DNA of 64,000 nucleotides, from positions 218,388 through 282,387 of the forward strand of contig JAJYLN010000001.1 in the NCBI GenBank assembly GCA_021787665.1, read 5' to 3'. Each line of letters starts with the position of its first letter. The first letter of the stretch is position 1. The position numbers and the translations under genes were made by a program. The notes beneath the pieces were generated by a model. The model was not told the DNA's origin. It saw nothing but the letters and a program-made list of their open reading frames with translations, and ran no database searches. Source of the stretch: a bacterium. Lineage in GTDB: Bacteria > JAMCPX01. This document shows positions 13,792 to 38,829 of this stretch, piece after piece.

Positions 13792-13822
13792 CGCAGCCTC
13801 CTTCCGTACAGCCGCGACAGGG

Positions 13823-14719: not shown

Positions 14720-14824
14720 TCTGCTCCTCCTCTGAAATAGATTCTGGCACGACGATAGAGTCTTTTGGGGGACAGGTCAACCGAAACAGCCACAGCGAAA
14801 CAGCCACAGCGGTCTCTGGAGAGG

Positions 14825-14854
14825 TTGACTTTTGTTTGTATGACATTGTATACA
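14825..14854 (+). promoter_or_regulatory. Sigma70-type promoter with very short leader
   Basis: TTGACT (14825-14830) and TATACA (14849-14854) with an 18-base spacer. The predicted start near 14861 leaves about ten bases before the kinase ATG and no ribosome site. It shares the string GGTTGACTTTT with the promoter at 6656. Confidence 0.6.
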
Positions 14855-14870
14855 TTTTTCAACACCTGTT

Positions 14871-18156: not shown

Positions 18157-18251
18157 AATCCTTAATATGAAGACGTGCGGCTTGCATAGAGAGGTAGACT
18201 CCCTCTGTTTTGAGGGAGATTCGGGCATATGAAAGGGACCGGAGCAACAGC

Positions 18252-19367
18252 ATGATTGTTATATGCGACAAGTGCAGTACAAAGTATAAGCTGGACGATT
18301 CCGCAATAACCGAGGACGGCGCGAAGGTACGGTGCTCGAAGTGCGGGAACACCTTCATCGTAAAAAGACCGAGGGCCGAGGATCTACAAAAGATCGCGCA
18401 GCCGGCCGGACAGGATAACCATAACCAGCAGGCCAATATCCATAGCGACCTGGACAGGGCAATCAGCGAGACCCTCAGCGACCTGACCGAACAGCCTCCG
18501 GAGCCGCAGGAGGCATCTGCTCCGACTCCCAACGAGTTCGACTGGTCCAGCCTTTCCGAGGAGAAAAAGGGACCCGGAAAAGAGGAATCCCTGGAGCTCG
18601 AATGGACCCCCGGGGGGCCCTCACCCCAGCGGGAGGAGCCCGTACCGGAACTGCTCGATACCGTCGAGCCGACGCCGAAAAAGGACCCCCCCGTGCAGGA
18701 GACCAAGCATGCTGCGTCGACAGCCGACGCTAAGGTGCCGGATCTCTCCAGCCCGACGGTCGAGCATGCCATAAACGAGTCGATCAGGCAGGACAGGCTC
18801 GAGGACACCTCCGGCACGGTCACCCCCATCATTAAAAAGGTCGTTATCGTGCTCATCACGTTCGTCCTGATCGCCGTGGCTGGCTACTCTGCCTATACGT
18901 ATAAATCCGAGCTTCTTTCCGTAAGCCACACCTTGTACACGAGCGTGTCCGCGTACCTTAGACCGCCCAAGCCGGTGAATATCGGCGTCAGCGTGAGCGA
19001 CGCGAAAGGGTATTTCATGAAGAACGTGAGGGGGCAGCAGTTGTTCGTCATAGAAGGAGACGTGATGAACACCGAGGCGCACACCGTGAGCTTCATAAAG
19101 CTCACGGCGAACATCTCAGACAACAACAATGCTACGATAGCTTCGAAATCCTTCTATGCGGCGAACATACTGACGGACAATGAGCTCAGGACGTTCACGA
19201 GCGATCAGATAAACGCCAAGCTCGCCAACGAGATGGGCCAGTCGCTGAAGAACTTCAACATTCCCCCACAAGGGAAGATACCGTTCATGGTCGTCTTTTT
19301 TGACGTCCCTGATAATCTCACCTCGTTCACGGTAACGCCCTCGGGCGTGCATACCGACGTCCAGTAG
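18252..19367 (+). CDS. MJ0042-type zinc-ribbon membrane protein with DUF3426-like domain
   Basis: 371 residues from the ATG at 18252 (MIVICDKCSTKY); an upstream ATG at 18210 would add 14 residues before the zinc finger and is unlikely. The N-terminal ribbon has CDKC and CSKCG four-cysteine ligands. Residues 45-195 are Pro/Glu-rich and probably disordered, a membrane helix lies near 205-225, and the C-terminal ~140 residues (VFVIEGDVMN-like LFVIEGDVMN, NFNIPPQGKIPFMVVF) match DUF3426. The topology, cytoplasmic zinc ribbon plus single helix plus periplasmic domain, recalls GltJ/AgmX of the Myxococcus gliding machine, though the C-terminal domain differs. Partner unknown; next gene follows after three bases. 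Confidence 0.82.
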   Translation: MIVICDKCSTKYKLDDSAITEDGAKVRCSKCGNTFIVKRPRAEDLQKIAQPAGQDNHNQQANIHSDLDRAISETLSDLTEQPPEPQEASAPTPNEFDWSSLSEEKKGPGKEESLELEWTPGGPSPQREEPVPELLDTVEPTPKKDPPVQETKHAASTADAKVPDLSSPTVEHAINESIRQDRLEDTSGTVTPIIKKVVIVLITFVLIAVAGYSAYTYKSELLSVSHTLYTSVSAYLRPPKPVNIGVSVSDAKGYFMKNVRGQQLFVIEGDVMNTEAHTVSFIKLTANISDNNNATIASKSFYAANILTDNELRTFTSDQINAKLANEMGQSLKNFNIPPQGKIPFMVVFFDVPDNLTSFTVTPSGVHTDVQ

Positions 19368-19370
19368 CCT

Positions 19371-20141
19371 ATGTCCGTAAAGGATACTGAACGAATCGCG
19401 ACAGAGCTGCTGGACAAGCTGTCGGCGTACCGGGAGCCTGCGATTCGGGAAGGCGTATTCTCACAGAAGATAAAGGAGCTCCCCCTGGAAACAGTCGTCG
19501 ACATCATCATGTATGTCGTAGACAGAGCGTACCGTAAAGAAGAGCGGTTCACCGACACCATGGGGATGTTCACGGACAAGATGCTCCTGCGAGACGCACT
19601 CGGGGAAAAGGGGATGTACCTGCTGGCAAGACTTGCTGCCGAGAGAGGGTACGATGCGCTGTTTGTCTTCCTGATCGATCGTGCACACAGGAACAAACAC
19701 GGGCGGGGCCGCAGCGAGATCGACGAGCCGCTCCCCGAACCTGGTATAGCCGGTATGCCGCTCGGATTGAGGAAATCGCTCTCAAAATCCCACGACAGAA
19801 ACACCCTCGGCAAGCTCCTGTATGACCCGGCACCATCCGTGGTAGGCATACTGCTGGACAACCCCAGGACCACAGAGTCCGATGTCGTAAAGATCGTCGC
19901 ACGGAGGCCGAACTCCGGAGACATCCTGAGGACGGTCTACCGGCATGAGAGGTGGAAGCACAGATACGCGGTCCAGTGCGGCCTTGCCATGAACCCCTAC
20001 ACGCCCACCGAAATCACCATGCGGATACTCCCGTATTTATTGAGCTTCGATCTCATAACGATCATCAATGACACGCGGCTGCCCAACACCGTGCGTGAGC
20101 AGGCAAGGGCTATCTTTCCCCGGCACGGCGCAGCCGTATAA
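19371..20141 (+). CDS. Helical repeat protein of unknown function
   Basis: 256 residues, soluble, mostly helical. Residues 140-250 read like HEAT/LRV-type repeats (LLYDPAPSVVGILLDNPRTTESDVVKI and ALAMNPYTPTEIT-like spacing), a pattern seen in uncharacterised proteins of delta-type bacteria. No catalytic motif is visible. It begins three bases after the zinc-ribbon gene and shares its transcript, which suggests they work together; a hairpin terminator follows. I cannot assign a function. Confidence 0.72.
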   Translation: MSVKDTERIATELLDKLSAYREPAIREGVFSQKIKELPLETVVDIIMYVVDRAYRKEERFTDTMGMFTDKMLLRDALGEKGMYLLARLAAERGYDALFVFLIDRAHRNKHGRGRSEIDEPLPEPGIAGMPLGLRKSLSKSHDRNTLGKLLYDPAPSVVGILLDNPRTTESDVVKIVARRPNSGDILRTVYRHERWKHRYAVQCGLAMNPYTPTEITMRILPYLLSFDLITIINDTRLPNTVREQARAIFPRHGAAV

Positions 20142-20225: not shown

Positions 20226-21266
20226 TCAGAATGTCCGTACGGTATCGTAGGAAGTCGTGCGCTGGACCGGCGTAAAGCCGGCGTCCCGAATCAGATGCAC
20301 GATCTCGTCCTCCTGGGCGACGAGCCTGTGTCCGGCGAGCCGCATGACGTTCTCCTCGAACAGCAGGCTCCCGAAATCGTTCGCACCGAAGTACAGCGAT
20401 AGCTGGCCTATGTCTTTGCCCTGCGAGGACCACGAAGCCTGGATATTCCTGAAGGTGTCGAGGTAGAGCCTTGCGATGGCGAGTATCCGCAGATAGGTCT
20501 CGGCACTGTGTCTGGTCACTATACGTCTGCCGAGTGCAGTATTGGCCGGCTTAAAGTCCCACGCTATAAACGCCGTAAACCCACGGGTCCTGTCCTGGAG
20601 ACCGCGCAGCCTGTCGAGATGCTCTATGACTTCCTCCGGCGTCTCGACGTGACCGTACATCATAGTAGCGGTCGTCGGTATGCCCATGGTGTGTGCCGTC
20701 TCCATGACGGAGAGCCATGCAGCGACCGGCGGCTTAGCCGGACTGATCTCTGACCTGACCCTCTCCGTGAGTATCTCGGCGCCCCCCCCCGGCATGGACA
20801 TCAGCCCGGCAGATTTTAATGCGGCAAGGACGTCCCGTTCGCTCATCCCGGATACACCTGCCATCCTGATAATCTCCGGCGGCGAGAAGGCATGGATATG
20901 TATGTCCGGAAAGCGGTCCCTGATGAATGCGATCATTCCGGTGTAGTAATCAAGGCCGAGGTCAGGGTGCATACCGCCCTGCAGAAGCACGGTCGTAACA
21001 CCGTGTTCCCGCGCCACAGCGAGCTTCTTCTCCAATGCCTTTTGGTCCATGACATAGGCTTCTGTATGGCCCTTCGGTCTGTAGAACGCACAGAAGAGAC
21101 AGCCGACGTCGCACACGTTCGTGTAGTTGATGTTCGTGTCCATCACGAAGCTCACCACCTGGTTCGGGTGCATCTCCATCCTCGCCTGGTGTGCGCGGCT
21201 ACCCAGCGAGAGGAGTGGCTCGGATGTGAGCAGCCTCAGTGCGGTTTCCTTATCAAGCCTCTTCAT
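20226..21266 (-). CDS. mqnC: Cyclic dehypoxanthinyl futalosine synthase
   Basis: 346 residues, radical SAM. The cluster motif is CDVGCLFCAFYR (near residues 53-64), followed by LLQGGMHPDLGLDYYTGM, which separates MqnC/MqnE from other family members; the C-terminal half has ETYLRILAIARLYLDTF and IQASWSSQGKDIGQLSLYFG, as in MqnC. It closes the ring of dehypoxanthine futalosine in menaquinone synthesis. This fits an anaerobe respiring with menaquinone. Separated by a strong terminator from the upstream minus-strand operon. Confidence 0.92.
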   Translation of the reverse strand: MKRLDKETALRLLTSEPLLSLGSRAHQARMEMHPNQVVSFVMDTNINYTNVCDVGCLFCAFYRPKGHTEAYVMDQKALEKKLAVAREHGVTTVLLQGGMHPDLGLDYYTGMIAFIRDRFPDIHIHAFSPPEIIRMAGVSGMSERDVLAALKSAGLMSMPGGGAEILTERVRSEISPAKPPVAAWLSVMETAHTMGIPTTATMMYGHVETPEEVIEHLDRLRGLQDRTRGFTAFIAWDFKPANTALGRRIVTRHSAETYLRILAIARLYLDTFRNIQASWSSQGKDIGQLSLYFGANDFGSLLFEENVMRLAGHRLVAQEDEIVHLIRDAGFTPVQRTTSYDTVRTF

Positions 21267-21306: not shown

Positions 21307-21344
21307 AAAGGGGAAAAGTTTTCGTCAAAAAACTTTTCCCCTTT
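21307..21344 (-). terminator. Strong rho-independent terminator of the Glt/Nfs-like operon
   Basis: A perfect 16-base inverted repeat (21307-21322 with 21329-21344) around a six-base loop. On the minus strand it continues into a T run (A run at 21305-21309 on the plus strand). It lies 26 bases beyond the last gene of the operon and insulates mqnC. Confidence 0.88.
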
Positions 21345-21369: not shown

Positions 21370-22728
21370 TCAGGTGCCCGCCGGAACGAAGATGAACGGA
21401 AATTTCACGTCGACAGTCCCGCTGTACGGCCGGGGGAATATCCAACGCCGTATGACCATCGCGATGCACTGCTCGACGTCCTTCTCGTGCATGGTCGTTC
21501 CGATAATCTTCGATGACATGACCGAGCCGTCCGTCCCGATCATGAACTCGACCACCACCTTGCCCTTCAGCTCGGGGTTCTTCTTCAGTCCCTTTTCATA
21601 GCAGTATTTCACCGAGGCCAGGTTTGCGTTTACGACCTGTCGGATGATATCGCCGGAGAGTCCGCCCCGGACACTCAATTCGCCTTCGGAGGTATTTGCC
21701 ACCTTCGCGAGTTTACCGCCGCGTCCGCCACCGAGACTGAGCGACTTGCCCGCTCCGCCACCTATATCTGCAATAGTGGCGGTCCCTCCCGCAAGTCCTG
21801 TGCCCCGCGCCTCCTTCAATTCACCGGCGCCGCCAGCGACCTTAAACCCCCCTATGCCTTTCAATGCCTTATTCAGGGACATTGCCGATGACTTCGAGAG
21901 CACGTCAGCACTCGCGCCCGTGCTCCTCTTCCTTGATACAATGAGCGCGAGCAGCCCCTTCGCGCTAACAGCGGCCCGCATCTGTTTCCTGGTGGGCTTC
22001 TGCGGCGCCGCGCCGTGCCTCGCCTCGCCAGCGCCAGCCCCCCCACCCTTCTCCGGCGTGGGCTTCGTCTCGGCCTTCTGCGGCGCCGGTGCCGCCTTCG
22101 CAACCTTGACCGGCTTGGGCGGCTGGATGAGCAGTTTTGCGAGCCTCGGCGGAATACCCTGGAACTCTGCGGGCCCGCGCATTTGACTCACATTCATGGT
22201 GTTGACCATATAGACGAACCCTGTCGTCAGTATGGTCACGATGACGAGGATGGCATAGAACAATCTGCTCTCCCGCTCTACATACTTTCTCTTGAACTCC
22301 TTGGGGAGCTTCGCCTTTACTATCTTGATGGGCTTGGGAGGAGGCGGAGGAGGAGCGGCAAACTCGAACTCTATCCTCAGGGTGCCTATCACGAGGCTAC
22401 CCTTCGTATCTTCCGATAGGTATAGCTTTAAAGCCCTCTTGCTGTTGGCAGGGTTATAGAACCTGCCGAGGTCCTTGATCTCCAGAGTGGTCTTGGAAGT
22501 CGAAATGGTGCCATTGATCCAGAGAGGTATCTTCAGATAAAAAGTTCGGCCCTTCTTTACACAGAGGCGATGCGAGGCAGGCATCTCCTTCGTCTTTAAC
22601 ACCACATCGTTGTCTTCCGATGTACCGATGGAAATCGACTTGTTCGTGAGGTAGATGACGTCGGGCCTCTCCTCACCTTTATAAATTACAAATCTCGGTA
22701 CTAATGCAGGCATCTTTTTGTCAGGCAT
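21370..22728 (-). CDS. FHA-like domain / TonB-like (AgmX/PglI C-terminal) protein, GltG/NfsG-like
   Basis: 452 residues: an FHA-like beta domain (about 10-125, with SISIGTSEDNDVVL and ASHRL), a proline run (125-133), one membrane helix (156-176), a Pro/Lys then Gly-rich stretch (200-350), and a C-terminal TonB-like domain (about 357-450) with IIRQVVNANLASVKYCYE and WIFPRP, the AgmX/PglI tail. The residue after the FHA glycine is Thr (IGT) where phosphothreonine-binding FHA domains have Arg, so phospho-binding is doubtful. In Myxococcus, GltG and NfsG share this layout and link the Tol-like motor to periplasmic parts; I infer the same here. Last gene of the operon. Confidence 0.87.
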   Translation of the reverse strand: MPDKKMPALVPRFVIYKGEERPDVIYLTNKSISIGTSEDNDVVLKTKEMPASHRLCVKKGRTFYLKIPLWINGTISTSKTTLEIKDLGRFYNPANSKRALKLYLSEDTKGSLVIGTLRIEFEFAAPPPPPPKPIKIVKAKLPKEFKRKYVERESRLFYAILVIVTILTTGFVYMVNTMNVSQMRGPAEFQGIPPRLAKLLIQPPKPVKVAKAAPAPQKAETKPTPEKGGGAGAGEARHGAAPQKPTRKQMRAAVSAKGLLALIVSRKRSTGASADVLSKSSAMSLNKALKGIGGFKVAGGAGELKEARGTGLAGGTATIADIGGGAGKSLSLGGGRGGKLAKVANTSEGELSVRGGLSGDIIRQVVNANLASVKYCYEKGLKKNPELKGKVVVEFMIGTDGSVMSSKIIGTTMHEKDVEQCIAMVIRRWIFPRPYSGTVDVKFPFIFVPAGT

Positions 22729-22762
22729 ATGCTCCCTTTATTGAGTCTCCCGTGCCGGTCCG

Positions 22763-23257
22763 CTATGAAGTTGTCTTTTGCAGTACTTCCAGGTTTATGG
22801 TGTTATAGCCCGCCTGGCCCGCCGTGTACATGATCTTTTCGAGGAGCCTGAACGGGATCGACTTGTCTGCCTGGATCATCATCTCGCCCCTGAACGGATT
22901 GGCCCCCTTGCTCAATCTCTCTATCTCCAGTCCCTTATCGGCCTCCTTTTTGAGCGAGGCGTAGAGGTCCGTGAGGAGCATGTTCTGCGATGTCATGTCC
23001 GCCGGCCCTACCGCTTCCACCTCTTTGCCCTCGACAAGCATGTACTTCTGCGTTACGGCAACGGTCAGGACGGCCTGCGGCTGCTTCTGGGACGTGGAAG
23101 TCGGCAGTCTGAGGTTCTGCGCCACGTTGCCCACATATCCTGTGGAAGAATAATTCTTGAGCAGAAACACCACGAGGATAGTGAACATATCGATCATCGG
23201 CGTCAGATTCAGGGAAATGGACGAGTGTTTCCTCTCTTTTGTTCTTCTGCGCATCAT
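22763..23257 (-). CDS. ExbD/TolR family motor protein (first of two)
   Basis: 164 residues with a basic cytoplasmic N-terminus, a single helix and a periplasmic domain. SLNLTPMIDMFTILVVFLL carries the proton-path aspartate Asp23. It would form, with the adjacent TolQ homologue, a proton-driven inner-membrane motor. The periplasmic part includes ANPFRGEMMIQADKSIPFRLLEKIM, the usual TolR-like fold. Its start abuts the stop of the other ExbD gene, so the two are coupled. Two different TolR proteins beside one TolQ is also the arrangement of AglR-AglQ-AglS. Confidence 0.92.
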   Translation of the reverse strand: MMRRRTKERKHSSISLNLTPMIDMFTILVVFLLKNYSSTGYVGNVAQNLRLPTSTSQKQPQAVLTVAVTQKYMLVEGKEVEAVGPADMTSQNMLLTDLYASLKKEADKGLEIERLSKGANPFRGEMMIQADKSIPFRLLEKIMYTAGQAGYNTINLEVLQKTTS

Positions 23258-23764
23258 TTATTTTACGACCTCCCCTATCGAGATATCCGGGAACAGGGCC
23301 ATCGCTCTCTTCTGACCGTTCTCCGTGACTATCGCCTCCCGTAGCGTGTCCATGACGTGGATCAGGATATCGTACTTTATGTCAGGCTCCGAGAGCAGGA
23401 TAACGTCCGTGGTGTCCGGGTACATCTTCTTTATCTCGATGAGCTTTTGAGACAGGGCGTCGTAGTCGTAGCCGCCGTTCTTCAGCGTTATCTCCGGCAG
23501 CACTGCCCCGGAGCCGCCGATGGTAAACCCCGTGTGCCGGATCGCGACCGTAAGGGTGATGCTCGGTTTCTGCTCCTGCTGGGCCGGGGCCACGGTCGGC
23601 GCGCTTGCCGACGGCAGGTTTATGTTCAGTATCGCAGCCGGGGCAACGATGATCGTCGCTATCAGAAAGACGATAAGGGTCACGAGAAAGTCGATGTATG
23701 GCGTAAGGTTGAGCTTCAGCTCTTCCCTCTCCATATGGCTGCGCCCGGAGGGCTTCTGTATCAT
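23258..23764 (-). CDS. ExbD/TolR family motor protein (second of two)
   Basis: 168 residues. LKLNLTPYIDFLVTLIVFLI gives the motor aspartate Asp25; a single helix and a periplasmic domain with PDTTDVILLSEPDIKYDILIHVMD follow. Sequence differs substantially from its neighbour, so this is an old pair rather than a fresh duplication. Start abuts the TolQ stop with no gap. Expected to bind peptidoglycan or the periplasmic partner and gate proton flow. Confidence 0.92.
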   Translation of the reverse strand: MIQKPSGRSHMEREELKLNLTPYIDFLVTLIVFLIATIIVAPAAILNINLPSASAPTVAPAQQEQKPSITLTVAIRHTGFTIGGSGAVLPEITLKNGGYDYDALSQKLIEIKKMYPDTTDVILLSEPDIKYDILIHVMDTLREAIVTENGQKRAMALFPDISIGEVVK

Positions 23765-24403
23765 CTATCCTCTCCTGAGGTGCGTAACGAGGTTCAGGAA
23801 CTTTATGGAGAGTTCGTCTATTTCGTCGATGATGGAAGACTGCCGCGTAAACAGGTACGCGTGGGACATCATGAAGATGATCGCAAGAAACAACCCGAAT
23901 GCCGTGTTGTTCATAGCCATCGATATACCGTACGCGAGCAGCGACGCCTTCTGCGCGGGGTCCGCCTGTGCGACAGCGGCGAACGCCTTGATAAGGCCCG
24001 TTATCGTCCCCAGCAGTCCGAACAGCGTGGAGACGTTCGCGAGCATCGCGAGGTAGTGCGTCCTCTTCTCCACGATCGGTATAATCTCGAGCGTCGACTC
24101 GTCCATCGCGTTCTGGATGTTCTTATCGCTCTCGTGGAACCGGTCGATGGCCACGGAGAATATCCTCGCAACCGGCGCTTTCGTCGAATCGCACAGCATC
24201 TTCGCCTCGTTTATCTTTCCCTCCGTCACATACCGCTTGACCTTGTCCCAGAAGGCCTTGCCGTTGAGATTCCACAGGAACACGAGCACGATAAACCTCT
24301 CTATCACGATCGACAGACCTATGACCGCCACGATCAGTATGGCGTACATAAACGGTCCGCCTTGCTTAAAGAAATCTATCAGAAAGTTTAATGGTCCGCC
24401 CAT
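23765..24403 (-). CDS. MotA/TolQ/ExbB proton channel family protein
   Basis: 212 residues with three membrane helices (about 18-38, 118-140, 155-178). LFGLLGTITGLIKAF and SMAMNNTAFGLFLAI are the conserved TolQ channel helices with the polar Thr residues that line the proton path. It forms the stator ring around the two ExbD/TolR proteins. The start overlaps the 3' end of the upstream 105-residue gene by 16 bases. AglR of the gliding motor is the closest functional analogue I can name, by context. Confidence 0.93.
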   Translation of the reverse strand: MGGPLNFLIDFFKQGGPFMYAILIVAVIGLSIVIERFIVLVFLWNLNGKAFWDKVKRYVTEGKINEAKMLCDSTKAPVARIFSVAIDRFHESDKNIQNAMDESTLEIIPIVEKRTHYLAMLANVSTLFGLLGTITGLIKAFAAVAQADPAQKASLLAYGISMAMNNTAFGLFLAIIFMMSHAYLFTRQSSIIDEIDELSIKFLNLVTHLRRG

Positions 24404-24705
24404 TTTTCCTCCTCTTTCCTAAATGTTTTGTCTTTCATTGTCTTGAATATCTTCTTCGAAAAGTCTTTCGAGTCCTCCTCGAGAGGCGTGGTCTCGTATA
24501 TCTGTGCAGAGGACTTATGAATGATGTACATAGCCTGAGGCTTCGGCAGCCTGCCCCGTACCAGGAAGCCCGAGAGTTTGACCCGCTCCTTCAGTAAGGC
24601 GCTCTCCTCTTTCTTTTTCTTTGCAGGCCCCGCTCCCAGGGACACGCCCGCAGTCATCACGAGAATCATGCCTACCACAACGGCCATTTTAAGCAAGGTT
24701 TTCAT
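24388..24705 (-). CDS. Small exported Lys-rich protein of the Glt/Nfs-like operon
   Basis: 105 residues: a clear signal peptide (about 1-24, ending SLGAG), then a highly charged stretch (AKKKKEE) and a compact domain with LSGFLVRGRLPKPQAMYIIHKS. No known family. It overlaps its neighbours at both ends (ATGA with the TPR gene, 16 bases with tolQ-like), so it is under strong coupling and is likely a real structural or accessory part of the machine. The motif RGRLPKPQAMYIIHK would be a useful search seed. Confidence 0.72.
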   Translation of the reverse strand: MKTLLKMAVVVGMILVMTAGVSLGAGPAKKKKEESALLKERVKLSGFLVRGRLPKPQAMYIIHKSSAQIYETTPLEEDSKDFSKKIFKTMKDKTFRKEEEKWADH

Positions 24706-25937
24706 TTACCCATACCTTTCCCGCCTGGGGAGACCGTCGGCTCCGTGAAGACGCGAACTGCCGTCGGCGTCGGGGCAGTCGTACCGGACACCGGAGACGA
24801 GACCGTCGGCGTCGGGGCAGTCGTACCGGACACCGGAGACGAGACCGTCGGCGTCGGGGCAGTCGTACCGGATACCGGAGACGAGACCGTCGGCGTCGGG
24901 GCAGTCGTACCGGACACCGGAGACGAGGTCGTCGCGGTAAACACGATTGGTGCGGCCGGTGCAGCATTACCGACGCTCGACTCGGCAAGCTGAAGGTTCA
25001 TGATTTGCCTCTTCACCTGCACCCGCTGCTTGTCGTCCGGGGGCAGCAGCGACTCATACGTCTCGAGGTAGTTGATAGCGTCAGGGTAGTTATGAAGGTA
25101 CCCCTGCTCGAGCACCGCCAGATTGAAGTACGCGTCCTTAAAGGCCTGGTCTATCATGATCGCTTTCCGGTAGCAGAATTGCGCGTCCTTGTAGTCGCCC
25201 AGGAACCGGTATGCAACGCCCAGGTTGAGATAACAGTAGGTACAGTCCGGGTTTTTCAGGATCGCCCTGCTGAAATATCGAATGGCGTCATGGTAGGCAC
25301 CGATGTCCGAATAGACAATGCCGATGTTGTTCAGTATTACCGGATCGTCCGGCTGAATCGCGCTCGCCTTCGAGAACGACTCGAGGGCAAGGTCCTTTCT
25401 GCCGAGCTTGTAGTAAACCGTGCCGAGCTTGTTATACACGTACGGATCATTCGGGTACCTGCTTTCCAGCTCCTTTAGGATCGACAGTGACAGCTCGGTA
25501 AGCCCGGTCGAGAGATACGCGTCCGAGATATCTTCGAGTATGTCCTTATGGCTGAAGTATTTCTCCTTCAGGCCCTGGATGAGCTGGATGGTCTTATCGG
25601 ACTTACCCGCGACCTGATAGGCATGCGCGAGTGCCATGATGATATAGGAATTGCCGTCGGTCGCTTTCATCCCTTCTTCGCCGTAGCTGATTGCATCGTT
25701 CACGTCGCCCTTTTCGGTAAGCCACCGTACGAGGTCGATGTACGCTATTGTTAGCCTGTTGTTGAGCCTCACCTCCCGTTCCAGCATACCTATCGCCTGG
25801 TCCGTCTTTCCGGACCGGTAGAGCTTCTCTGCCCGGTGCACCGTATCCAACGATTCGATCCCCCGGTTCATCGCCGGAAGACCGGACACCGGCAGCAGGA
25901 GCAGCACACCTATCATGAGAAGTGAACGCCGTATCAT
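24702..25937 (-). CDS. Exported TPR protein with Pro/Thr repeat tail
   Basis: 411 residues. Signal peptide (1-20), then about eight to nine TPR motifs (residues 28-300; for example DPVILNNIGIVYSDIGAYHDAIRYFSRA) and a low-complexity tail of four copies of VSSPVSGTTAPTPT. No lipobox. TPR proteins in Glt and Nfs systems scaffold the periplasmic part of the complex. The tail is encoded by a 42-base tandem repeat and could vary in length between strains. The start shares one base with the stop of the 1069-residue gene. Confidence 0.85.
   Translation of the reverse strand: MIRRSLLMIGVLLLLPVSGLPAMNRGIESLDTVHRAEKLYRSGKTDQAIGMLEREVRLNNRLTIAYIDLVRWLTEKGDVNDAISYGEEGMKATDGNSYIIMALAHAYQVAGKSDKTIQLIQGLKEKYFSHKDILEDISDAYLSTGLTELSLSILKELESRYPNDPYVYNKLGTVYYKLGRKDLALESFSKASAIQPDDPVILNNIGIVYSDIGAYHDAIRYFSRAILKNPDCTYCYLNLGVAYRFLGDYKDAQFCYRKAIMIDQAFKDAYFNLAVLEQGYLHNYPDAINYLETYESLLPPDDKQRVQVKRQIMNLQLAESSVGNAAPAAPIVFTATTSSPVSGTTAPTPTVSSPVSGTTAPTPTVSSPVSGTTAPTPTVSSPVSGTTAPTPTAVRVFTEPTVSPGGKGMGK
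24763..24930. repeat. Tandem repeat, four 42-base units in a coding region
   Basis: Four contiguous 42-base units, nearly identical, in frame with the TPR gene, each encoding 14 residues (VSSPVSGTTAPTPT). Because 42 is a multiple of three, copy-number change would lengthen or shorten the Pro/Thr linker without frameshift. Near-identity points to recent expansion. Confidence 0.95.
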
Positions 25938-28900
25938 CAGTCTGTCCCCGCACTGTATGTCGTTACAGCATAGCCTTTTTCTGTCTCGAAAAACAAGAGA
26001 AATGGCCCGCGGTAGCTCTTCGTCAGAGCGCCGCGTCCAGTGCCTGACAGGTTGAGCTTCTCCGCAGAGACGGGCAGCAGGGGAATCCTCAGGATATTCT
26101 TCTCCCGCGGAGGGTACGAGAGACTCTCCGCAGGATCGAGCCTCTCGAGGCCGTCCTTCGCCATCTCCACGAACTTACTTTTTATGCCGAGCTGATAGGC
26201 TTTGTCGAGTGTCTTCTTATATATGCTGATAGCGTTGTCCTTAACGGACCCCACCTTCTCGGCCAGCATGGACTTATAAAGACCCTGCTCCTCGTCGCTT
26301 AACCCTCTGGGTATCGGTGAGTTTATCACATCGGTGTAGAACTGCTCATAGGCGTTGGCATCCAGATACAGCGACGAGATCGCATACGCCGGCGCCCCGA
26401 GCTCCACGATGGCAGTCAGCTTCCGGTTCAGCTTCGCAAGCATCCTGGTTTTCTTACCGAAGACCTTCTGCAGCGTTGCGGTGGACTTGAACTGAACCTC
26501 GCCATAGAGATTGTAATACTGCTCCGAAAAGAAGAACTGCGCTCCCGCATAGTAATACACATAGGGCTGGCTCTCCTCCTTGCTCAACTGCGAGAACAGG
26601 TCTATCACCCTGCGGTAGAACTTCTCTGCCTTCTTCGGAGAGTCCTTCTCCCACAGCTTCGCCGCCTTGAAGCACGCCTGGATGGACAGCTTGACGTTCT
26701 GCGGCTTGTCGCACAGCCTCTGGTAGATCTTCAGGGCCTTGTCCGTGTCGCCCGCCTTGAAGTAGTCCTCAGCAGTATACATAGAGTACTGCGGCCTCTC
26801 CTTCTTCGAGGCATATTGCCCCTCGTAGTTCTCGTAGTACCCTGCCGCTCTCTGGTAGTCGCCTATCTTCTCCTTCAACACCGCAAGGTTGTAGGTCGCA
26901 TCCTTTGCCTGGGGACTGTTGGAGTACTTCCCGACGATGGAGGCGTACATGTCCATCGCCCGATCGAATCTGAGAGCCTTCTCATAGGACAGGCCAAGTT
27001 CCAGGATGGCAGACGGGATAAGGTCGGAGGAAGGATAGTTCTTTATCAAGTCTTCGAACGCGGCCCTTGCCTGCTTCACGTTGCCCATCTTGTTCAGCAC
27101 GACGCCCATGTTGTAGACCGCCTTGTCCCTGGTGATAGATGTGTCGGTCTGTACCAGGGCTATGTAAGCGATGGCCTTTGCGTAGTAGGTATGGGCCTTT
27201 TCCCAGTCACCCGAATCGAATGCAGTCTTCGCTTTGATAAACCAAAGCTTCCCCAAAACGTCCTTCAGGTACGCCACCGCTTCCCTATGGTCCGAAAGAA
27301 CATGGTATCTGAGTATCTGCACGCCCCACTGCTCCAGTCCAGGCTGGTCCTTTATTGCTCCGTACGCCGATACGATATACTTGAGCGCGTCCTGCGTGAG
27401 CTTGCTGCTCCGGTACGTGAGCAGGAGCTTCTGGAAGGTCTTTATGGCCTCCGCGTAGTGCTTTGCACTGTACAGCGTCTCTCCTGCCTTATAGAGCACC
27501 TTCGGTGCGTCGCTCGCCTCCGGGTACAGGGACGTGTAGATGTCGCACGCATCCACGAACTTCCCCAGCCTCTCGTCATAGGGGGGGGTATCGCCGGTCA
27601 TGGTCAGGGCCTCCTCGTACGACTTGACCATGTCGAACGCGGCATCGTTGCGATACTTCTCGTTTACATACCTCGACGTCAGAGCCACCTTCTTGTAGAA
27701 ATCTCCCGCGATCATGAACTCGTTCAGCTTGTACGCCATGAGCGCATAGAAGAAGTGCACGACAGGGATCTCCTTGTCTCCCGGGAAGTCATTCATATAC
27801 CTGAGGAGGACCTTCTGAGCCTCTTCGTACTGCGACGGCAGGGGCGGCTTGCCTTTCTGCTCGGATATACCTATCAGATCGGTGACCAGGGACAGCGTGG
27901 CCTTCTTGAGGATGTCGAGCGCATGCCTTTTTGGCCCCGGCGCCTGGAGCGAGGCCATGAACGGAGAGCCCAGGCCATAGTTCTTCGTGATGATCAGCCG
28001 CACCTTGTTTGCATCGCCGAACCTGCCGATCTTCTCGTACAGGAGCATCTCGTCATAGAGCGCCTCGATGGCATCGATCGTGCCCGGCAGCCTCTGGATA
28101 ATATTGTTGTACGCCTGGATCGCGAAGTTGTAGAGGTTCAACTTCACGTACACCCCCCCCACCTTTCCCATGATAAGAGCGTAATACCGGTCCCATTTTA
28201 CCCTGTTCAGAAACGCGTCTGTATCGGACGGGGTCCTGTTCTCGCCGAGGATAAGGCTTATGTACTCGAACGCCTCGGCCCGCATAGACTCGCGCTTTTG
28301 CGCACCCTGCGCGCGGTCCGCCCTGTCGACGACCTCCACAAAATCAGCGAGTGCCTGATCGTACTTGTCCTCCCTGAAGAACGTCCAAGCCTCTTTGTAC
28401 AGGGCCATGTCGTAAAACATGCTGTTCTTGTACTGGAGCACCTTCGCATAGGCATCCTCCGCGGATGATAGCCACCCGTTGTTGAAGTAATATTCTCCGA
28501 GCCTGAACCATACCTCGGGAATGAGCTGCGAGGTGGGGAACTTCTTCGTTATCTCGAGGTAGTTGTCAGCTGCCTGTTTCTCCATGCCTTCCTCTCCGGA
28601 ACAGTACCCCCTGAGGTAGTAAGCAAGATATGCATACTTGTTGTCCGGGTAATGATCGATAAACCGCGTGTACATGTCGATGGACCTGCTGTAGCTTATG
28701 CGGGGCGGAGGGCCCGGATTCCGGCCCCTATCGAGCTCGTGCTCGTACGATTTCATGTCCTGCATGAACTGCTGGTTTGTCCGTTCGTAGTACAGTTCCG
28801 CGAGTCTCAGCATCACTTCCGGTATGAGGGGAGAATCCGGATAGGTCTTCAGGACGTGCTCCAGCCCGGTTATCTCATCGCTCCTCTTCTCGATCTCGGT

Positions 28901-29146
28901 CTTCAGCAGCGTGCTCGTTGCCCTTGCCAGGCTCTCTTTCGCCGACTGCACGGCCGCCTCCTCGCTCCTGATGATCAGGGCTTTCACCTGTTTATTCATC
29001 TGCCCCAACTGCATGGTCGTATACTGGATATCGATCCTCGTGTCGATGTCCGCGCGTGCGTCACCCAGCATGTCTGCGCGCAGAACAGGCACGGCGGCCA
29101 AGGAGGAAACGAGCAGGAATCCGGAAATACAAAGGCTACCTCTCAT
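25937..29146 (-). CDS. Giant exported TPR protein (GltD/GltI-like by context)
   Basis: 1069 residues. Signal peptide (about 1-24), short coiled coil, then TPR repeats nearly to the C-terminus, beginning GLEHVLKTYPDSPLIPEVMLRLAE and including many YPxSxLxPEaxxxLG-type repeats like those of BamD/YbgF (outer-membrane assembly lipoproteins). The last 100 residues form a separate beta domain. Probable periplasmic scaffold. Large TPR proteins are a defining part of the Glt and Nfs machines. It overlaps the upstream gene by 11 bases. No enzyme motif seen. Confidence 0.83.
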   Translation of the reverse strand: MRGSLCISGFLLVSSLAAVPVLRADMLGDARADIDTRIDIQYTTMQLGQMNKQVKALIIRSEEAAVQSAKESLARATSTLLKTEIEKRSDEITGLEHVLKTYPDSPLIPEVMLRLAELYYERTNQQFMQDMKSYEHELDRGRNPGPPPRISYSRSIDMYTRFIDHYPDNKYAYLAYYLRGYCSGEEGMEKQAADNYLEITKKFPTSQLIPEVWFRLGEYYFNNGWLSSAEDAYAKVLQYKNSMFYDMALYKEAWTFFREDKYDQALADFVEVVDRADRAQGAQKRESMRAEAFEYISLILGENRTPSDTDAFLNRVKWDRYYALIMGKVGGVYVKLNLYNFAIQAYNNIIQRLPGTIDAIEALYDEMLLYEKIGRFGDANKVRLIITKNYGLGSPFMASLQAPGPKRHALDILKKATLSLVTDLIGISEQKGKPPLPSQYEEAQKVLLRYMNDFPGDKEIPVVHFFYALMAYKLNEFMIAGDFYKKVALTSRYVNEKYRNDAAFDMVKSYEEALTMTGDTPPYDERLGKFVDACDIYTSLYPEASDAPKVLYKAGETLYSAKHYAEAIKTFQKLLLTYRSSKLTQDALKYIVSAYGAIKDQPGLEQWGVQILRYHVLSDHREAVAYLKDVLGKLWFIKAKTAFDSGDWEKAHTYYAKAIAYIALVQTDTSITRDKAVYNMGVVLNKMGNVKQARAAFEDLIKNYPSSDLIPSAILELGLSYEKALRFDRAMDMYASIVGKYSNSPQAKDATYNLAVLKEKIGDYQRAAGYYENYEGQYASKKERPQYSMYTAEDYFKAGDTDKALKIYQRLCDKPQNVKLSIQACFKAAKLWEKDSPKKAEKFYRRVIDLFSQLSKEESQPYVYYYAGAQFFFSEQYYNLYGEVQFKSTATLQKVFGKKTRMLAKLNRKLTAIVELGAPAYAISSLYLDANAYEQFYTDVINSPIPRGLSDEEQGLYKSMLAEKVGSVKDNAISIYKKTLDKAYQLGIKSKFVEMAKDGLERLDPAESLSYPPREKNILRIPLLPVSAEKLNLSGTGRGALTKSYRGPFLLFFETEKGYAVTTYSAGTD

Positions 29147-31220
29147 TCTGGATCTGCTCCCGCATGGTCTTGAGGTTCCTCAGACGGTCCTTCAGCGCCT
29201 GCAGGTACTTGTTTAAAGCACCCTGGTCTCCGCGTCTCACCTCTATGGTGGTGGAGGTCGGTATCGTCCCCACGACCTTTCTTTCCTGCGCCCTCACCCC
29301 ATGGTACCGCACCGTGATGCTGTGCACCTCTTTCTCGCTCTCCGAATACTCCTTGTTTATCCGCTCCGTGTACGCCTCCTTGCTCAGCATCCTCGTATCG
29401 ATAAAGGCGACCTCTGCCTGCGATGCAAGGATACTGAGAGACCGCGCGATGTCCGTATACATGTCTTTCACGGTCCTGTCGCTTGCGGAGCGGAGCCATG
29501 ACCCCGCCATACTGCCGTAGGATGCGTCAAGGTCCTTTGCTTCCCTCGAAGTATCTGCATACTTGACATCGATCAGGTTATTCAGGGTCGCGTTGACGTT
29601 GGTGAGCATCTTCCTCTCGTTCCCCATGGTACTCAGTACCTGTTCGCCGGCAGTACCGATGGAGTTGCTGCGCAGAGCCATGCTCTGCTGGACGTCGAGC
29701 GAAACCGCCCTTATATCGTTCAGGCCCTTCTCCAGCGACAGCGTATCTTCGTAGGGGTCATACCGATAGAAAGGTTTCCCCTGTTTCTGCGCCCAGCCTG
29801 CCGGCCCGAGATCCTTGATGTTTGTAAACGAGAGGGTGATGTAGTACCTCATGAGCATCTCCCTCGCCAGGGCAGCGTCCCGGAAGCTGTTCAGGATGCC
29901 CAGCTTATCACTTGCCTTGGTGAAACGACGGGTCAGCACGAGCCTCAACAGGGAGTCCCGGTCATCCGCCAGGGCGAGAGAGTAGCCCCTGAGCGACTTC
30001 TCGTCCAGAAAAATGTCCTGATCGAGCACGGATCTTGAGCTTTCGATATAGGTACCCATCCCCTTCAGCCCGCTGTCGATCTTCATGGCCTTCCCGTATA
30101 CCGCCTGCATCCGCGTGTAAACCGTATCCTGCAGCAGGTATCCGCCGATCTCCCTCGCCACCCAGTTCCGATTCTTCGCGAGCTCTGGCAGCGGAGGGTC
30201 GGACCTCAGGATAGCGACTGCCTCGTTGTACTGCCGTATCGTATCGGAGAAATAGTCCGTTGCTACATCGTACTGCCTGAGCTTCGTGAGCACGTATCCC
30301 TCCTGCAGCATCGCCTTCAATTTCAGCAGACTCGGTGACCGGATGGACATCAGTCTGTTGGCAAGATCGCGGGCCTCCTGAAAATTGTTAACCTTTTGTG
30401 CAGCCCAGAAGGACTCATAGAGCGCATCGACGTAGTAGGACGATGTCGGCGGTATCTGCATATAGATCGCCGTGGCACCGGTAAAGTCTCCTCCGTCGTA
30501 GTACATCCTCGCGAGTGCCAGTCTTGAGAGTACGCCGACCTTGCTCCCCGCAGCTATCGTCGTGTCGCTCACCAATCTGGCGAACAGCGCCATCGCGGAT
30601 GCAGCAGCGCCTTGTTTCAGCAGTGCGACGGCCCTGAGATACGAGGCCTCTGCCACCAGCGACGGGTCCCCGGTGACCTTCTTCAGGAACGACGTAGCGC
30701 TCGCCGGGTAGCCGGCAAGAGACAGGAACCAGCCAGCCGAAAAGTTGAACTCGTCGTCGTCCACGGCACCCATCCTCCCAATACCATCGCTCAGTACCGA
30801 CGCCAATCTGCCGTCTCGGCCCCGGGAAAAGTATTCCATCCCTTTCAAGAGCGCAGACCTGAGCAGCGTCCTGTCGGTCGTGCTGCGTATGACCGGGACA
30901 AGGTAATGCACGGCGCTCGCTATATCTCCGGTCAGAGCGAAGTCCTGCGACAGGACGTAAAGAATGCTGTCTTTGTTCTCCATCCCTGCGAATGCCGGCG
31001 TTGCTACCACCGCAGTCAGGTAGATCAGGCCGTCCGCATAGTTGCCGGAATTGGAGAGTATCAGACCATTGTTCAGCAGGATATCGACCGGCCTGACGTT
31101 GCTCTTTGCGTTATTATAATAGATGACCGAAGGGTACTTCGTATCCGCACGTGAACTGGACGCGAGGAGCAACAGGAACACAGTCGCTGTCACAGCAATG
31201 ACCGGGGACTTTCTGATCAT
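29136..31220 (-). CDS. Large exported TPR/coiled-coil protein
   Basis: 694 residues. Signal peptide (1-25, ASSSRA), then TPR repeats to about residue 330 (for example YPASATSFLKKVTGDPSLVAEASYLRAVALL), followed by a long helical half with little repeat character and probable coiled coil (520-690). It overlaps the next gene by 11 bases and follows the 207-residue gene by seven, so it is part of the same coupled operon. The combination of TPR and coiled coil suggests a structural role spanning the periplasm. I cannot match it to one named Glt protein. Confidence 0.8.
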   Translation of the reverse strand: MIRKSPVIAVTATVFLLLLASSSRADTKYPSVIYYNNAKSNVRPVDILLNNGLILSNSGNYADGLIYLTAVVATPAFAGMENKDSILYVLSQDFALTGDIASAVHYLVPVIRSTTDRTLLRSALLKGMEYFSRGRDGRLASVLSDGIGRMGAVDDDEFNFSAGWFLSLAGYPASATSFLKKVTGDPSLVAEASYLRAVALLKQGAAASAMALFARLVSDTTIAAGSKVGVLSRLALARMYYDGGDFTGATAIYMQIPPTSSYYVDALYESFWAAQKVNNFQEARDLANRLMSIRSPSLLKLKAMLQEGYVLTKLRQYDVATDYFSDTIRQYNEAVAILRSDPPLPELAKNRNWVAREIGGYLLQDTVYTRMQAVYGKAMKIDSGLKGMGTYIESSRSVLDQDIFLDEKSLRGYSLALADDRDSLLRLVLTRRFTKASDKLGILNSFRDAALAREMLMRYYITLSFTNIKDLGPAGWAQKQGKPFYRYDPYEDTLSLEKGLNDIRAVSLDVQQSMALRSNSIGTAGEQVLSTMGNERKMLTNVNATLNNLIDVKYADTSREAKDLDASYGSMAGSWLRSASDRTVKDMYTDIARSLSILASQAEVAFIDTRMLSKEAYTERINKEYSESEKEVHSITVRYHGVRAQERKVVGTIPTSTTIEVRRGDQGALNKYLQALKDRLRNLKTMREQIQNER

Positions 31221-31227
31221 GGCTCTC

Positions 31228-31851
31228 CTACTGTATTCCCGGAGGCGCCCTGAAGGATTGCTGGAACTTTACGCCCGGCCTTTCCGGGATATCCCCCTTG
31301 CCCTTATCGAAGCACAGGAGGTCGAGGTGCGTCATCATGTCCGGCTTGGCGTCGAGGACGCCGGACACGCTGACATTAAAGTTTTTTCCAGTCCCGAGAC
31401 CGAACAGACCCGAGGTCTGCAACATCATGTATACCTCGACGCTGTGCTTCCCCGGCACCAGCGCTCCGTTAAACAGGACCTCTTTGGTGTTCGACAGGGA
31501 ACCCTCGTGCAGCGGTGGCAGCTTGAACCCGTCCACATAAACCGAGATCTTCTCCGGAACCAGATCGTTGTGGGGAAACGACGTGTCGAGGGCTATCTGG
31601 ACGGGAGCACCCTGCGACAGGGAGTAGACGATGCCTTCGCCAAACAAGAGCAGCCTGCCCTTCATGGCGAGCATCTGCCGGTTGAGTTCGCTCAGGGAGG
31701 CGTCGATGTCACCGACATTGTTTTTATTATAATAACTCGTAAATCTGTCGTCGCTGAGCAGACTCTTTTTACGGTCGCCGGCGAGCGTGCTCTGCGCGTT
31801 CATCAGAGACAGGAAAACGATAACTATGGCCAACGCTGTTCCTTTCCTCAT
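31228..31851 (-). CDS. Exported protein of unknown function in the Glt/Nfs-like operon
   Basis: 207 residues with a signal peptide (1-24, STLAG). The middle has a beta-sandwich feel (VQIALDTSFPHNDLVPEKISVYVDGFKLPP; LVPGKHSVEVYMML), like PEGA or cohesin-type surface modules, preceded by a short coiled segment. No catalytic residues are seen. It lies between the barrel protein and the TPR proteins, so it may bridge them. Family not recognised. Confidence 0.72.
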   Translation of the reverse strand: MRKGTALAIVIVFLSLMNAQSTLAGDRKKSLLSDDRFTSYYNKNNVGDIDASLSELNRQMLAMKGRLLLFGEGIVYSLSQGAPVQIALDTSFPHNDLVPEKISVYVDGFKLPPLHEGSLSNTKEVLFNGALVPGKHSVEVYMMLQTSGLFGLGTGKNFNVSVSGVLDAKPDMMTHLDLLCFDKGKGDIPERPGVKFQQSFRAPPGIQ

Positions 31852-31881
31852 ACACCCTTCCTTCCATCTTTCGATTATAGT

Positions 31882-33402
31882 TTACTTACCACTTTTCAGA
31901 ACAAATTCAAGTACTGTCTTCATGCCCTCCGTTATGATCACCTTCGATATGATGGGTGTGTACCCCTGGGCGGTTATCGTAATGTAGTATTCTCCCGGCT
32001 TCAGGTTCGTCGAGAAGTAGCCCGTGGAGGGATCCGTCACGATGTCCGCAAGGTCCCATCGGTCGAATTTGATCGTTGCGAGGAGCGGCTGGTTGTCCTC
32101 GTTCACCACTTTGCCGATAAAGCTCCCGAACGAGTAGGTCCTGCTCAGGTAAAAGTCCTGGGTTATCTCCTGATTAGGGAGGATGAGTCTCATCCGCTCG
32201 ACGCTCTCGTACCCTGGCTTGCTCGCCTCGATCGTAACGGGGCCGACGTTGAGGAGGCAGGACTTGTACGTCCCCGTTGTCATGCTCGTAAGGACATCCG
32301 AGCAGTGAGTGGAACCTTTTATGGAGATAATCGCGTGCGACAGGATCTCCTTCGTTTCTGCGTCGTAGACGGTGCCATCCACGCCGCCGTACGGCATCGA
32401 CTCCTTCGGTATCAGGAGCTGCAGATTGCTCGTCACATTCTTTACCCTGTAGATGGCCTTCATAAACGATGGCTTGAAGATGAAAGCGAAAGACAGGTAT
32501 AGGTTCCACAGCGGAACAATGCTGATGTCGTGGCCCATGACATTCTGAGGCGCGCTCAGGCCCACGTCTATGGCGGCATCGATCGTAAACGGTTTGAGCG
32601 GTTGTATCCGTATGCCAGGGGTGAGTCTCTGCGGACTCGTGGCAAAGCTCTCGGTGAGAACCTTGCTCAGGTCGTACTCCAGGAACGGCGTGAGGAACGT
32701 CCCCCTTATCGGGAACAGCAGGTCCACATCGAACAGGATCTGGTCCGAGGGGAGAATCCCCAGAGAATTTTTGATATCCGGCGATACGAGATACCCGAGG
32801 GCCAAAAGCTGCCTCGAGTTGTCCAGGTGGTAGCCGAGGTTCATATTGACCATCATCGGCAGCTTCGAGCCGCTCCGGGCATCGTACCCCAGCAGGACGA
32901 GCCCGTACCCTCCGATCGCCGAGCCCGCATAAAAGATGTCCTGCAGCGGCGTCAGCATCTGCAGGCTGCCGAGGACACCTACACTGAGAACAGGACTGAT
33001 CTTATAGGAATACTTTAGCCCCATCCTGAAATCGCCTATCGCCTGGATAAGGCTGTGGACGTGATATTGCGTATAGTACTGCGACGAGCTCGATCCCATC
33101 ATGCCCGCAAAGCCTTCGAGGCCCTTGGTTATGCCTCCGGTCACATACCCGAAGTTGCTGATGTTCTGGATGCCATTCGAGCTTGAGAGTGACATGTCCC
33201 CGGAATCGAAATAGTTTATGCCACCGATGATGCTGAAGCTCCCCGGCGCCAGGGAGTACGGCAGGTTGAGCCGCAACAGCCCGGTGCCTCCATTTGCTGA
33301 AGGCGCATCCAGAATCAGCTTATCGTTTGCGTAAAGGGACGCTGGCAGGGCCAACACCATCAGTGCTGCCGCAGCATATTGAAGGCATTTGTTTAACTTC
33401 AT
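31882..33402 (-). CDS. Outer-membrane beta-barrel protein with C-terminal carboxypeptidase-regulatory/PEGA-like domains
   Basis: 506 residues. Signal peptide (1-25, LYANDK), then alternating amphipathic strands to about residue 320 typical of a small outer-membrane barrel. Two Ig-like modules follow: GGVDGTVYDAETKEILSHAIISIKG (about 340-430) and FIGKVVNEDNQPLLATIKF (about 430-505), both of the carboxypeptidase regulatory-like type, probably periplasmic or surface-exposed. First gene of the operon, with a consensus promoter whose predicted start is only about eight bases before this ATG. It is the likely outer-membrane element of the machine, analogous to GltA/B/H. Confidence 0.83.
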   Translation of the reverse strand: MKLNKCLQYAAAALMVLALPASLYANDKLILDAPSANGGTGLLRLNLPYSLAPGSFSIIGGINYFDSGDMSLSSSNGIQNISNFGYVTGGITKGLEGFAGMMGSSSSQYYTQYHVHSLIQAIGDFRMGLKYSYKISPVLSVGVLGSLQMLTPLQDIFYAGSAIGGYGLVLLGYDARSGSKLPMMVNMNLGYHLDNSRQLLALGYLVSPDIKNSLGILPSDQILFDVDLLFPIRGTFLTPFLEYDLSKVLTESFATSPQRLTPGIRIQPLKPFTIDAAIDVGLSAPQNVMGHDISIVPLWNLYLSFAFIFKPSFMKAIYRVKNVTSNLQLLIPKESMPYGGVDGTVYDAETKEILSHAIISIKGSTHCSDVLTSMTTGTYKSCLLNVGPVTIEASKPGYESVERMRLILPNQEITQDFYLSRTYSFGSFIGKVVNEDNQPLLATIKFDRWDLADIVTDPSTGYFSTNLKPGEYYITITAQGYTPIISKVIITEGMKTVLEFVLKSGK

Positions 33403-33416
33403 GATCTTGGATAGTG

Positions 33417-33445
33417 AGTTTATCGAATTACGGTATGCTTGTCAA
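33417..33445 (-). promoter_or_regulatory. Consensus sigma70 promoter of the Glt/Nfs-like operon
   Basis: Minus strand: TTGACA (33445-33440), 17-base spacer, TAAACT (33422-33417). Predicted start near 33410 leaves about eight bases before the ATG at 33402, so the mRNA is nearly leaderless; no ribosome site is seen. Confidence 0.72.
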
Positions 33446-33460
33446 ACGAAAAAAACTGAA

Positions 33461-33480
33461 GAAAAACCCGCTAAGCGGTG
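33461..33480 (-). terminator. Weak hairpin terminator at the response-regulator stop
   Basis: On the minus strand CCGC-TTA-GCGG overlaps the stop codon and is followed by GTTTTTCTT. Short stem, so read-through into the operon from the chaperone genes is possible. Confidence 0.45.
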
Positions 33481-34034
33481 CGCAGCCGGTCGATGACGTC
33501 GAGCAGCCGTTTGCCGAACTGCTCCCTGTCTGCACTATTGCCTTTATTGAGGTAGGCGGAGGGTTTCGTGATGTTCATGATCCTCTTGAAGTTCTCGTCG
33601 CATTTAACCACGGAGAAAAAGATGATCGGTATCTTCTGGGCCAGCTTGAGCCCGTTCTCGAGCGCTCTCACGGTCCTTGCGGCATCGATGCCGGTGATGA
33701 TGGGCATGTTGACGTCGAGTATGATCAGGTCCACCGGGGCCTTGTTCTTCAGGAGGTCGCTCAACTGGGAGAGAAAGACCCTGCCGTCCTCGCTCTCCAC
33801 GATGTCCTTGACGATGCCGCTGTTCGCGCATATCTCGGCGACCTGCTTCCGAACGATAGAAGAGTCATCGGATAGGAGGAGGCGGTCCATGACCTTCTTT
33901 TTGAACTCCTTCCGGGTGAGGTCGAGGCCGCACTGGGTGCAGTGGATCCGCTCCTCGCCGCCGGTTATCATGATGACCGGATCGACCATCTCTCCGCAGC
34001 TCGAACAAAAGATCTTAAGTTCCTGATCTGCCAT
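33471..34034 (-). CDS. Response regulator receiver with N-terminal zinc ribbon
   Basis: 187 residues. Four cysteines (10, 13, 32, 35: FCSSCG and HCTQCG) form a zinc ribbon; from residue 48 a receiver domain follows with acidic pair SDDSS, phosphoacceptor Asp107 in LIILDVNMP, and the conserved Lys in YLNKG. There is no output domain, so it should act by protein contacts. It ends the grpE-dnaK-dnaJ group (three bases after dnaJ) and lies just before the Glt/Nfs-like operon, making it a candidate regulator of either. Cognate kinase not in view. Confidence 0.87.
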   Translation of the reverse strand: MADQELKIFCSSCGEMVDPVIMITGGEERIHCTQCGLDLTRKEFKKKVMDRLLLSDDSSIVRKQVAEICANSGIVKDIVESEDGRVFLSQLSDLLKNKAPVDLIILDVNMPIITGIDAARTVRALENGLKLAQKIPIIFFSVVKCDENFKRIMNITKPSAYLNKGNSADREQFGKRLLDVIDRLRTA

Positions 34035-38793: not shown

Positions 38794-38829
38794 CCGATCA
38801 CTCCAATAATTTCCCTCTTCTTTTCTGCA

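Follow-up and report, generated by a model that had tools for sequence, protein, structure and literature searches.

What does an Agl/Glt-type machine do when its parts are gathered in one place? The question is raised by ten genes on the minus strand of a 64,000-nucleotide stretch of bacterial DNA (contig JAJYLN010000001.1), the whole of which we call the window. What the Agl/Glt core complex originally did has been a question since 2011, because the Myxococcus xanthus version is scattered, duplicated and specialised; the window holds a compact, self-contained version, in which motor, force transducer, scaffold and outer-membrane end are encoded by ten co-directional genes. An initial annotation had described a complete Glt/Nfs-like machine, and the family relationship holds, with a GltG match (E=1.6e-49), a Tol-type motor, tetratricopeptide repeat (TPR) scaffolds and a recurrent gene order, but "complete" was overstated, since GltJ was not found and the outer-membrane candidate is not detectably GltA or GltB. 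We consider it probable that the block belongs to the Agl/Glt/Nfs "core complex" family, within a kind that carries a conserved protein named B below and that includes the G4-type clusters linked to mglBA, and that it serves as a proton-driven transporter of surface cargo.

The ten open reading frames were confirmed and are named, in order of transcription, A (506 amino acids), B (207), C (694), D (1069), E (411), F (105), R (TolQ, 212), Q and S (both TolR, 168 and 164) and G (452). Successive genes from A to G are separated by +30, +7, -11, -1, -4, -16, 0, 0 and +34 nucleotides; the frames and lengths first reported thus stand, but the description of all ten as overlapping or abutting fails at two gaps of about 30 nucleotides. 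In a relative from another genus of the source phylum (G004) the identical ten genes occur in identical order, and in a congener (G001) the block is syntenic with the window up to the end of the contig, which falls inside G. Comparison with this congener indicates that the genes are real and kept under purifying selection: amino-acid identity is 73-87% and dN/dS 0.065-0.19 in the six genes measured (A, B, C, D, E and S), which argues for maintained genes. The marks by which the Agl/Glt core complex is recognised are found together here, namely a single genomic region, a TolQ and two TolR proteins encoded with a GltG-type gene, and C, D and E in order before the motor genes, as judged by cluster hidden Markov models (HMMs) and gene order.

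The call of one TolQ and two TolR proteins is confirmed by a MotA_ExbB domain in R and ExbD domains in Q and S. These are distant members of their families: R scores 53.8 bits on the TolQ model against a cut-off of 221, all three lie far below the TolQ/ExbB equivalog cut-offs, and in a FastTree phylogeny the window TolQ falls outside the branch of the genome's two other TolQ/ExbB proteins. On the NCBIfam GltG model G scores 169 bits over residues 29-451 (model cut-off 650), and on the AgmX/PglI C-terminal domain 104.8 bits (E=1.9e-30), above the 40-bit cut-off; in a profile made from G and related proteins, the C-terminal part matches TonB structures. Of the earlier description of G as an FHA-like/transmembrane/TonB-like protein, the helix and the TonB-like end are upheld, but the forkhead-associated (FHA) call is weak (Yop-YscD_cpl, E=0.0037, below cut-off), though consistent with the GltG profile. 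The genome, which is 92.7% complete, has a single AgmX/PglI C-terminal domain, that of G, and GltJ was not found there.

TPR domains were detected in C, D and E, in agreement with the three exported TPR proteins proposed at the outset; the NCBIfam GltC match of C is weak (5.4e-5). At its C-terminus, E (gene at 24702-25937) carries near-identical 14-residue repeats, SSPVSGTTAPTPTV, which are replaced by a different repeat in the congener and almost missing in G004, and this tail is therefore fast-evolving. The 105-residue protein F, which had been left without a match, is of GltF type. It aligns with small exported proteins in the equivalent position elsewhere, with which it has the motif G-x-x-x-[KR]-P in common, and an F match lies between E and G, E then G on one strand, in 52 of 52 distinct loci outside the phylum, up to seven of which contributed to the seeding of the F model. 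Luciano et al. 2011 (PMC3169522) assigned gltF to the late-recruited Group A, outside the core; with the wider sampling of loci here, gltF belongs with the core.

B, the other protein reported as unmatched, represents a family conserved directly upstream of C, which it immediately precedes in every locus where both were found. Among outside genomes, its profile was detected in 5 of the 10 that have G and in 0 of the 41 that do not (Fisher p=1e-4), a comparison of genomes that are not independent and in which the 41-genome search had no positive control of its own, the identical profile having matched in another search. On these grounds B appears to be a conserved part found only in glt-bearing genomes, so that F and B would extend the core by two conserved parts. 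The predicted structure of B (mean pLDDT, the predicted local distance difference test, 69) comprises a signal peptide, a coiled coil at residues 46-76 and a beta-sandwich at 81-203, and does not look barrel-like; a Foldseek search with this model gave no PDB match at E≤0.001. Its likeness to unrelated beta-sandwich domains (VIA-align Z≤8.8, residues 81-203 only) was set aside as a common fold of no functional meaning. In three loci of other lineages a TPR protein of 358-391 amino acids resembling the C-terminal part of D lies directly before B (L040, 11829-13004; L179, 7793-8902; L181, 7776-8852), in the slot that A holds in the window.

In A, first described as a barrel with Ig-like or regulatory-like modules, a family scan detected CarboxypepD_reg domains; the barrel is predicted from family membership and strand alternation. 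The N-terminal region of A matches larger proteins elsewhere, including some in source-phylum genomes that do not have the block, and residues 13-506 align to residues 7-515 of a 658-residue paralogue (31% identity, E=7e-65), which continues past the aligned region into an OmpA domain. All four larger relatives scanned combine CarboxypepD_reg with a C-terminal OmpA domain, the C-termini of all seven look alike, and A stops before the OmpA domain in each of the three species (window, G001 and G004). A is thus probably a recruited OmpA-family outer-membrane protein that lost its peptidoglycan anchor, which would suggest a route to a new outer-membrane end. Profile comparison (hhalign) of A and of B with the small barrels encoded upstream of C elsewhere, presumed GltA/B types, gave a probability of 0.3% from shallow alignments, small barrels elsewhere in the genome not having been searched for; A is accordingly described here as not detectably GltA or GltB, and the same comparison gave no support for B as either.

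Features of the block and its flanks, with positions in the window
Feature	Position	Strand	Description
CofH/MqnC-type radical SAM gene	20226..21266	-	Downstream flank; adjoins the zinc-ribbon receiver gene where the block is absent
Terminator	21307..21344	-	Perfect inverted repeat and T run, read directly from the sequence
G	21370..22728	-	452 aa, GltG-like; FHA-like N-terminus, membrane helix ~156-175, TonB-like C-terminus
S	22763..23257	-	TolR-family protein 2, 164 aa; ExbD domain, membrane Asp kept (LTPMIDM)
Q	23258..23764	-	TolR-family protein 1, 168 aa, AglQ/S type; ExbD domain, membrane Asp kept (LTPYIDF)
R	23765..24403	-	TolQ-family motor protein, 212 aa, AglR position; MotA_ExbB domain, channel threonines kept
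F	24388..24705	-	105 aa, exported, GltF type; motif G-x-x-x-[KR]-P
E	24702..25937	-	411 aa, exported TPR protein, GltE-like, without lipobox cysteine; C-terminal repeats
D	25937..29146	-	1069 aa, exported TPR protein, GltD position; TPR domains, order, tree
C	29136..31220	-	694 aa, exported TPR protein, GltC-like; TPR domains, cluster HMMs, gene order
B	31228..31851	-	207 aa; signal peptide, coiled coil, Ig/transthyretin-like beta-sandwich; directly upstream of C
A	31882..33402	-	506 aa; signal peptide, probable outer-membrane beta-domain ~25-312, two carboxypeptidase-regulatory-like domains ~340-503
Promoter-like element	33417..33445	-	TTGACA-N17-TAAACT upstream of A; position and spacing kept in G001 and G004
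Zinc-ribbon and receiver protein	33471..34034	-	187 aa, directly upstream of A; recurrent, non-exclusive neighbour of B-C clusters

The wider relationships were surveyed in loci carrying a GltG relative, with a six-sequence GltG alignment for the scan of named genomes, an eleven-sequence alignment having proved too divergent for that purpose. The order C-D-E-F-(R-Q-S)-G recurs in a metagenome-assembled genome (MAG) labelled Bdellovibrio (L053), in MAG L040/L051 and in Myxococcota-labelled MAGs; the KSB1 MAG L058 has a reduced set, and many Myxococcota loci have the cluster order without R-Q-S. Neighbours of homologues do include Tol-type motors, whose constant absence would, by the terms of the initial annotation, have refuted it: R-Q-S-G occurs in order, TolQ-TolR-TolR beside G, at 12 loci, two of them from the source phylum. 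Trees of D and of G, whose sequence set did not include M. xanthus proteins (genuine Nfs among them), group the window with L041, L052, L070 and cluster-linked loci of several lineages (support 0.997 for D and 0.986 for G). Separate from these stand L045 and two Archangium loci, L056 and L071, which form part of a Glt/Nfs-like clade; the G proteins of L045 and L071 outscore that of the window on the GltG model.

Two of these relatives point to a counterpart in M. xanthus itself. The order in L052 is MglB-MglA-B-C-D-E-F-G, and L041 is identical from MglA onward. In M. xanthus, mglA is MXAN_1925 and mglB is MXAN_1926 (PMC4316618), and MXAN_1922 is the gltD homologue of a cluster called G4, mutation of which left motility intact and whose function was given as unknown (Luciano et al., PMC3169522). 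MXAN_1922 is the third gene after mglA, as is D in L041 and L052, and G4, matched by locus numbers and order, is therefore the likely M. xanthus counterpart of the window cluster. The window accordingly seems to group with the mglBA-linked G4-type clusters and not with the gliding Glt or the spore-coat Nfs clade; in the window B lies directly upstream of C as in these clusters, and mglBA is not adjacent, being on contig C6 of the source genome, with the block on C15. The neglected G4 cluster beside mglBA would then be a tractable place to study the function of this branch.

The block also varies within its own phylum, of which the genome collection used contains nine members, all from one family and four genera (g1 to g4). 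G was found in both g1 genomes and in the single g4 genome (3/9), and not in g2 or g3. In G002, G003 (99% complete) and G006 the zinc-ribbon receiver gene that flanks A in the window directly adjoins the radical SAM (S-adenosylmethionine) gene of the other flank, the block being absent. The ten genes thus appear to come and go as a unit, and related species with shared flanks provide a natural on/off contrast. An unrooted DnaK-DnaJ tree splits {g1,g4} from {g2,g3} with support 0.969, and one gain or loss is therefore enough to explain the pattern. Since G004 is the most divergent of the genomes, the simplest account is that the block was lost once.

The sequences show which genes are there, in what order, how well they are conserved and that they are present or missing together; the mechanism that we infer is modelled on the M. 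xanthus relative, in which an AglR-GltG interaction and motor-dependent complexes are known (PMC3169522) and GltA, GltB and GltC form an outer-membrane subcomplex. Protons would pass the inner membrane through TolQ and the two TolR proteins, and the motor would push or rotate the membrane helix of G, the transducer, whose TonB-like end may cross the peptidoglycan and engage the periplasmic TPR scaffold C-D-E together with F. In the part of the model that is particular to this block, B, with its coiled coil and beta-sandwich, could act as the adaptor that couples this scaffold to A in the outer membrane. A does not have the peptidoglycan-binding domain of its paralogues and would be free to be dragged laterally over the cell, carrying a surface polymer or adhesin as cargo. 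We favour a cargo that organises a surface coat; movement of the cell itself is possible, and less favoured.

Several points weigh against this interpretation. Structure prediction of A from three sequences failed (pLDDT 36), and its strand-alternation signal is modest: 5 of 500 shuffles reach it in the window, the G004 signal is weaker still, and the small barrels of other loci went undetected when put to this test. Because C, D and E are of TPR type, single matches may be promiscuous, and their identity comes from gene order and from the trees. In these trees, support falls to 0.2-0.7 at nodes close to the window, and in the D tree the B-type loci do not form a single clade. The direction of transport and the cargo are both matters that we infer.

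One alternative is that the block is a true gliding-motility machine, in which the motor drives adhesion complexes along the surface and so propels the cell, under the control of MglA and MglB. Possession of AglRQS and GltA-G may, as Luciano et al. speculate (PMC3169522), mark a bacterium as a potential glider; the source genome encodes MglA (76% identical to a Myxococcaceae MglA) and MglB (58%), and two related loci of Myxococcota type have MglA immediately before B. However, MglA is present in all nine genomes of the phylum, including the six without detectable G; since PilT is likewise present in 9/9, type IV pili can explain MglA, and neither protein was retained as a marker of the machine. 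We regard gliding as unlikely, and prefer surface-cargo transport on three grounds: GltJ was not found, A shows no detectable likeness to GltA/B, and motility does not depend on the G4 counterpart. A role in assembling or arranging a polysaccharide or coat on the cell surface, like that of Nfs for the spore coat of Myxococcus, is a good deal more plausible, if somewhat short of probable: Nfs uses the same motor type and is encoded in a single eight-gene cluster (nfsA-H), and A has carboxypeptidase-regulatory-like domains, but the immediate flanks (chaperones, zinc-ribbon receiver, radical SAM) contain no polymer-synthesis gene that we could see, and the window lies outside the Archangium Glt/Nfs-like clade.

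More conventional explanations fare worse. An ordinary Tol-Pal or TonB system to which TPR accessories have been added would account for the TolQ/TolR and TonB-like domains, but it fits poorly with a TolQ score so far under the family cut-off beside a 169-bit GltG match, and with two other TolQ/ExbB proteins that are encoded elsewhere in the genome and branch apart; we give this reading the least credence of all. Hardly more credible is a protein secretion apparatus, to which D might point through its weak resemblance, below cut-off at E=1.3e-11, to PorW/SprE of type IX secretion: that similarity is TPR-generic, and family scans of the ten proteins matched no secretin or translocon. More speculatively, the B-containing clusters may encode Agl/Glt-type machines of a third functional class, distinct from those for gliding and for the spore coat, linked to polarity and signalling proteins and hauling a peptidoglycan-free outer-membrane carrier, the links being MglBA in Myxococcota and the zinc-ribbon receiver in the source phylum and two other lineages. 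We hold this as a tentative and rather doubtful proposal; if it is true, the third class would distribute a surface polymer or adhesin.

The regulatory signals and neighbours of the block add some context. For the consensus promoter first proposed upstream of A, the scan for promoter hexamers was at chance (7 found against 7.0 expected), but a TTGACA-N17-TATA-like element stands at the matching place in 3/3 species and is therefore supported as a promoter despite the scan. The perfect terminator proposed at the other end was recovered by direct reading, although the consensus scan did not list its inverted repeat; no counterpart was seen in the G004 relative. Proteins encoded just upstream of TPR-B-C in L179 (G056) and L181 (G051) share 34-36% identity with the zinc-ribbon receiver protein along almost all of its length. 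It was rejected as an obligate part of the machine, as genomes in which G was not found also have it (G047, G002, G003, G006, G007 and G008); G047, which has no glt match, encodes several homologues.

Further observations concern the surroundings. One gene from the block, on the plus strand (18210-20141), are a zinc-ribbon/DUF3426 protein and a 256-residue protein that matches no Pfam family; the L040 glt cluster has a similar pair next to it (13131-15376), and in G003 and G004 the pair is located elsewhere. A second, more divergent MglA-like gene (58% identity; G000, C17:176269-176844) follows a gene for a 410-residue protein that weakly matches the 256-residue window protein, and similar pairs are found in most genomes of the phylum. 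Near the block there is also a large gene for a TPR and serine/threonine protein kinase (14871-17255). At 37891-41787, beside grpE-dnaK-dnaJ, a glycyl radical enzyme resembling pyruvate formate-lyase is encoded next to a radical SAM/ferredoxin-type protein, a possible activase.

Among the closest known systems is the bare core complex described in 2011 by Luciano et al. (PMC3169522), which likewise has one TolQ, two TolR, the GltC, GltD and GltE TPR proteins and GltG in a single region outside Myxococcales; the window differs by the presence of F, B and the probably OmpA-derived A in the block and by its small, different phylum. The Agl-Glt gliding machine of M. xanthus has the motor and the GltC/D/E/F/G types in common with the window, where no GltJ was found, GltH/I/K and CglB were not identified in the block, GltA/B appear to be replaced and G does not have the first part of GltG (the match starts at profile position 225). 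Nfs resembles the window as a single cluster with C-D-E-F-G types, but NfsA/B are predicted outer-membrane barrels, whereas B is not barrel-like, A appears unrelated to the small barrels of other loci by profile comparison (shallow alignments), and NfsH was not identified in the window. M. xanthus G4 is alike in that D corresponds to the MXAN_1922 position by the order in L041 and L052, the loci that the D and G trees join with the window; the window differs in having its motor genes inside the block, mglBA not adjacent, and A. The core complex has been known since 2011, and the window machine is therefore not a new machine class; what is new is the recognition of B and F as conserved parts, a probably OmpA-derived A, the likely placement with G4-type clusters and the pattern in which the block is absent from related genomes.

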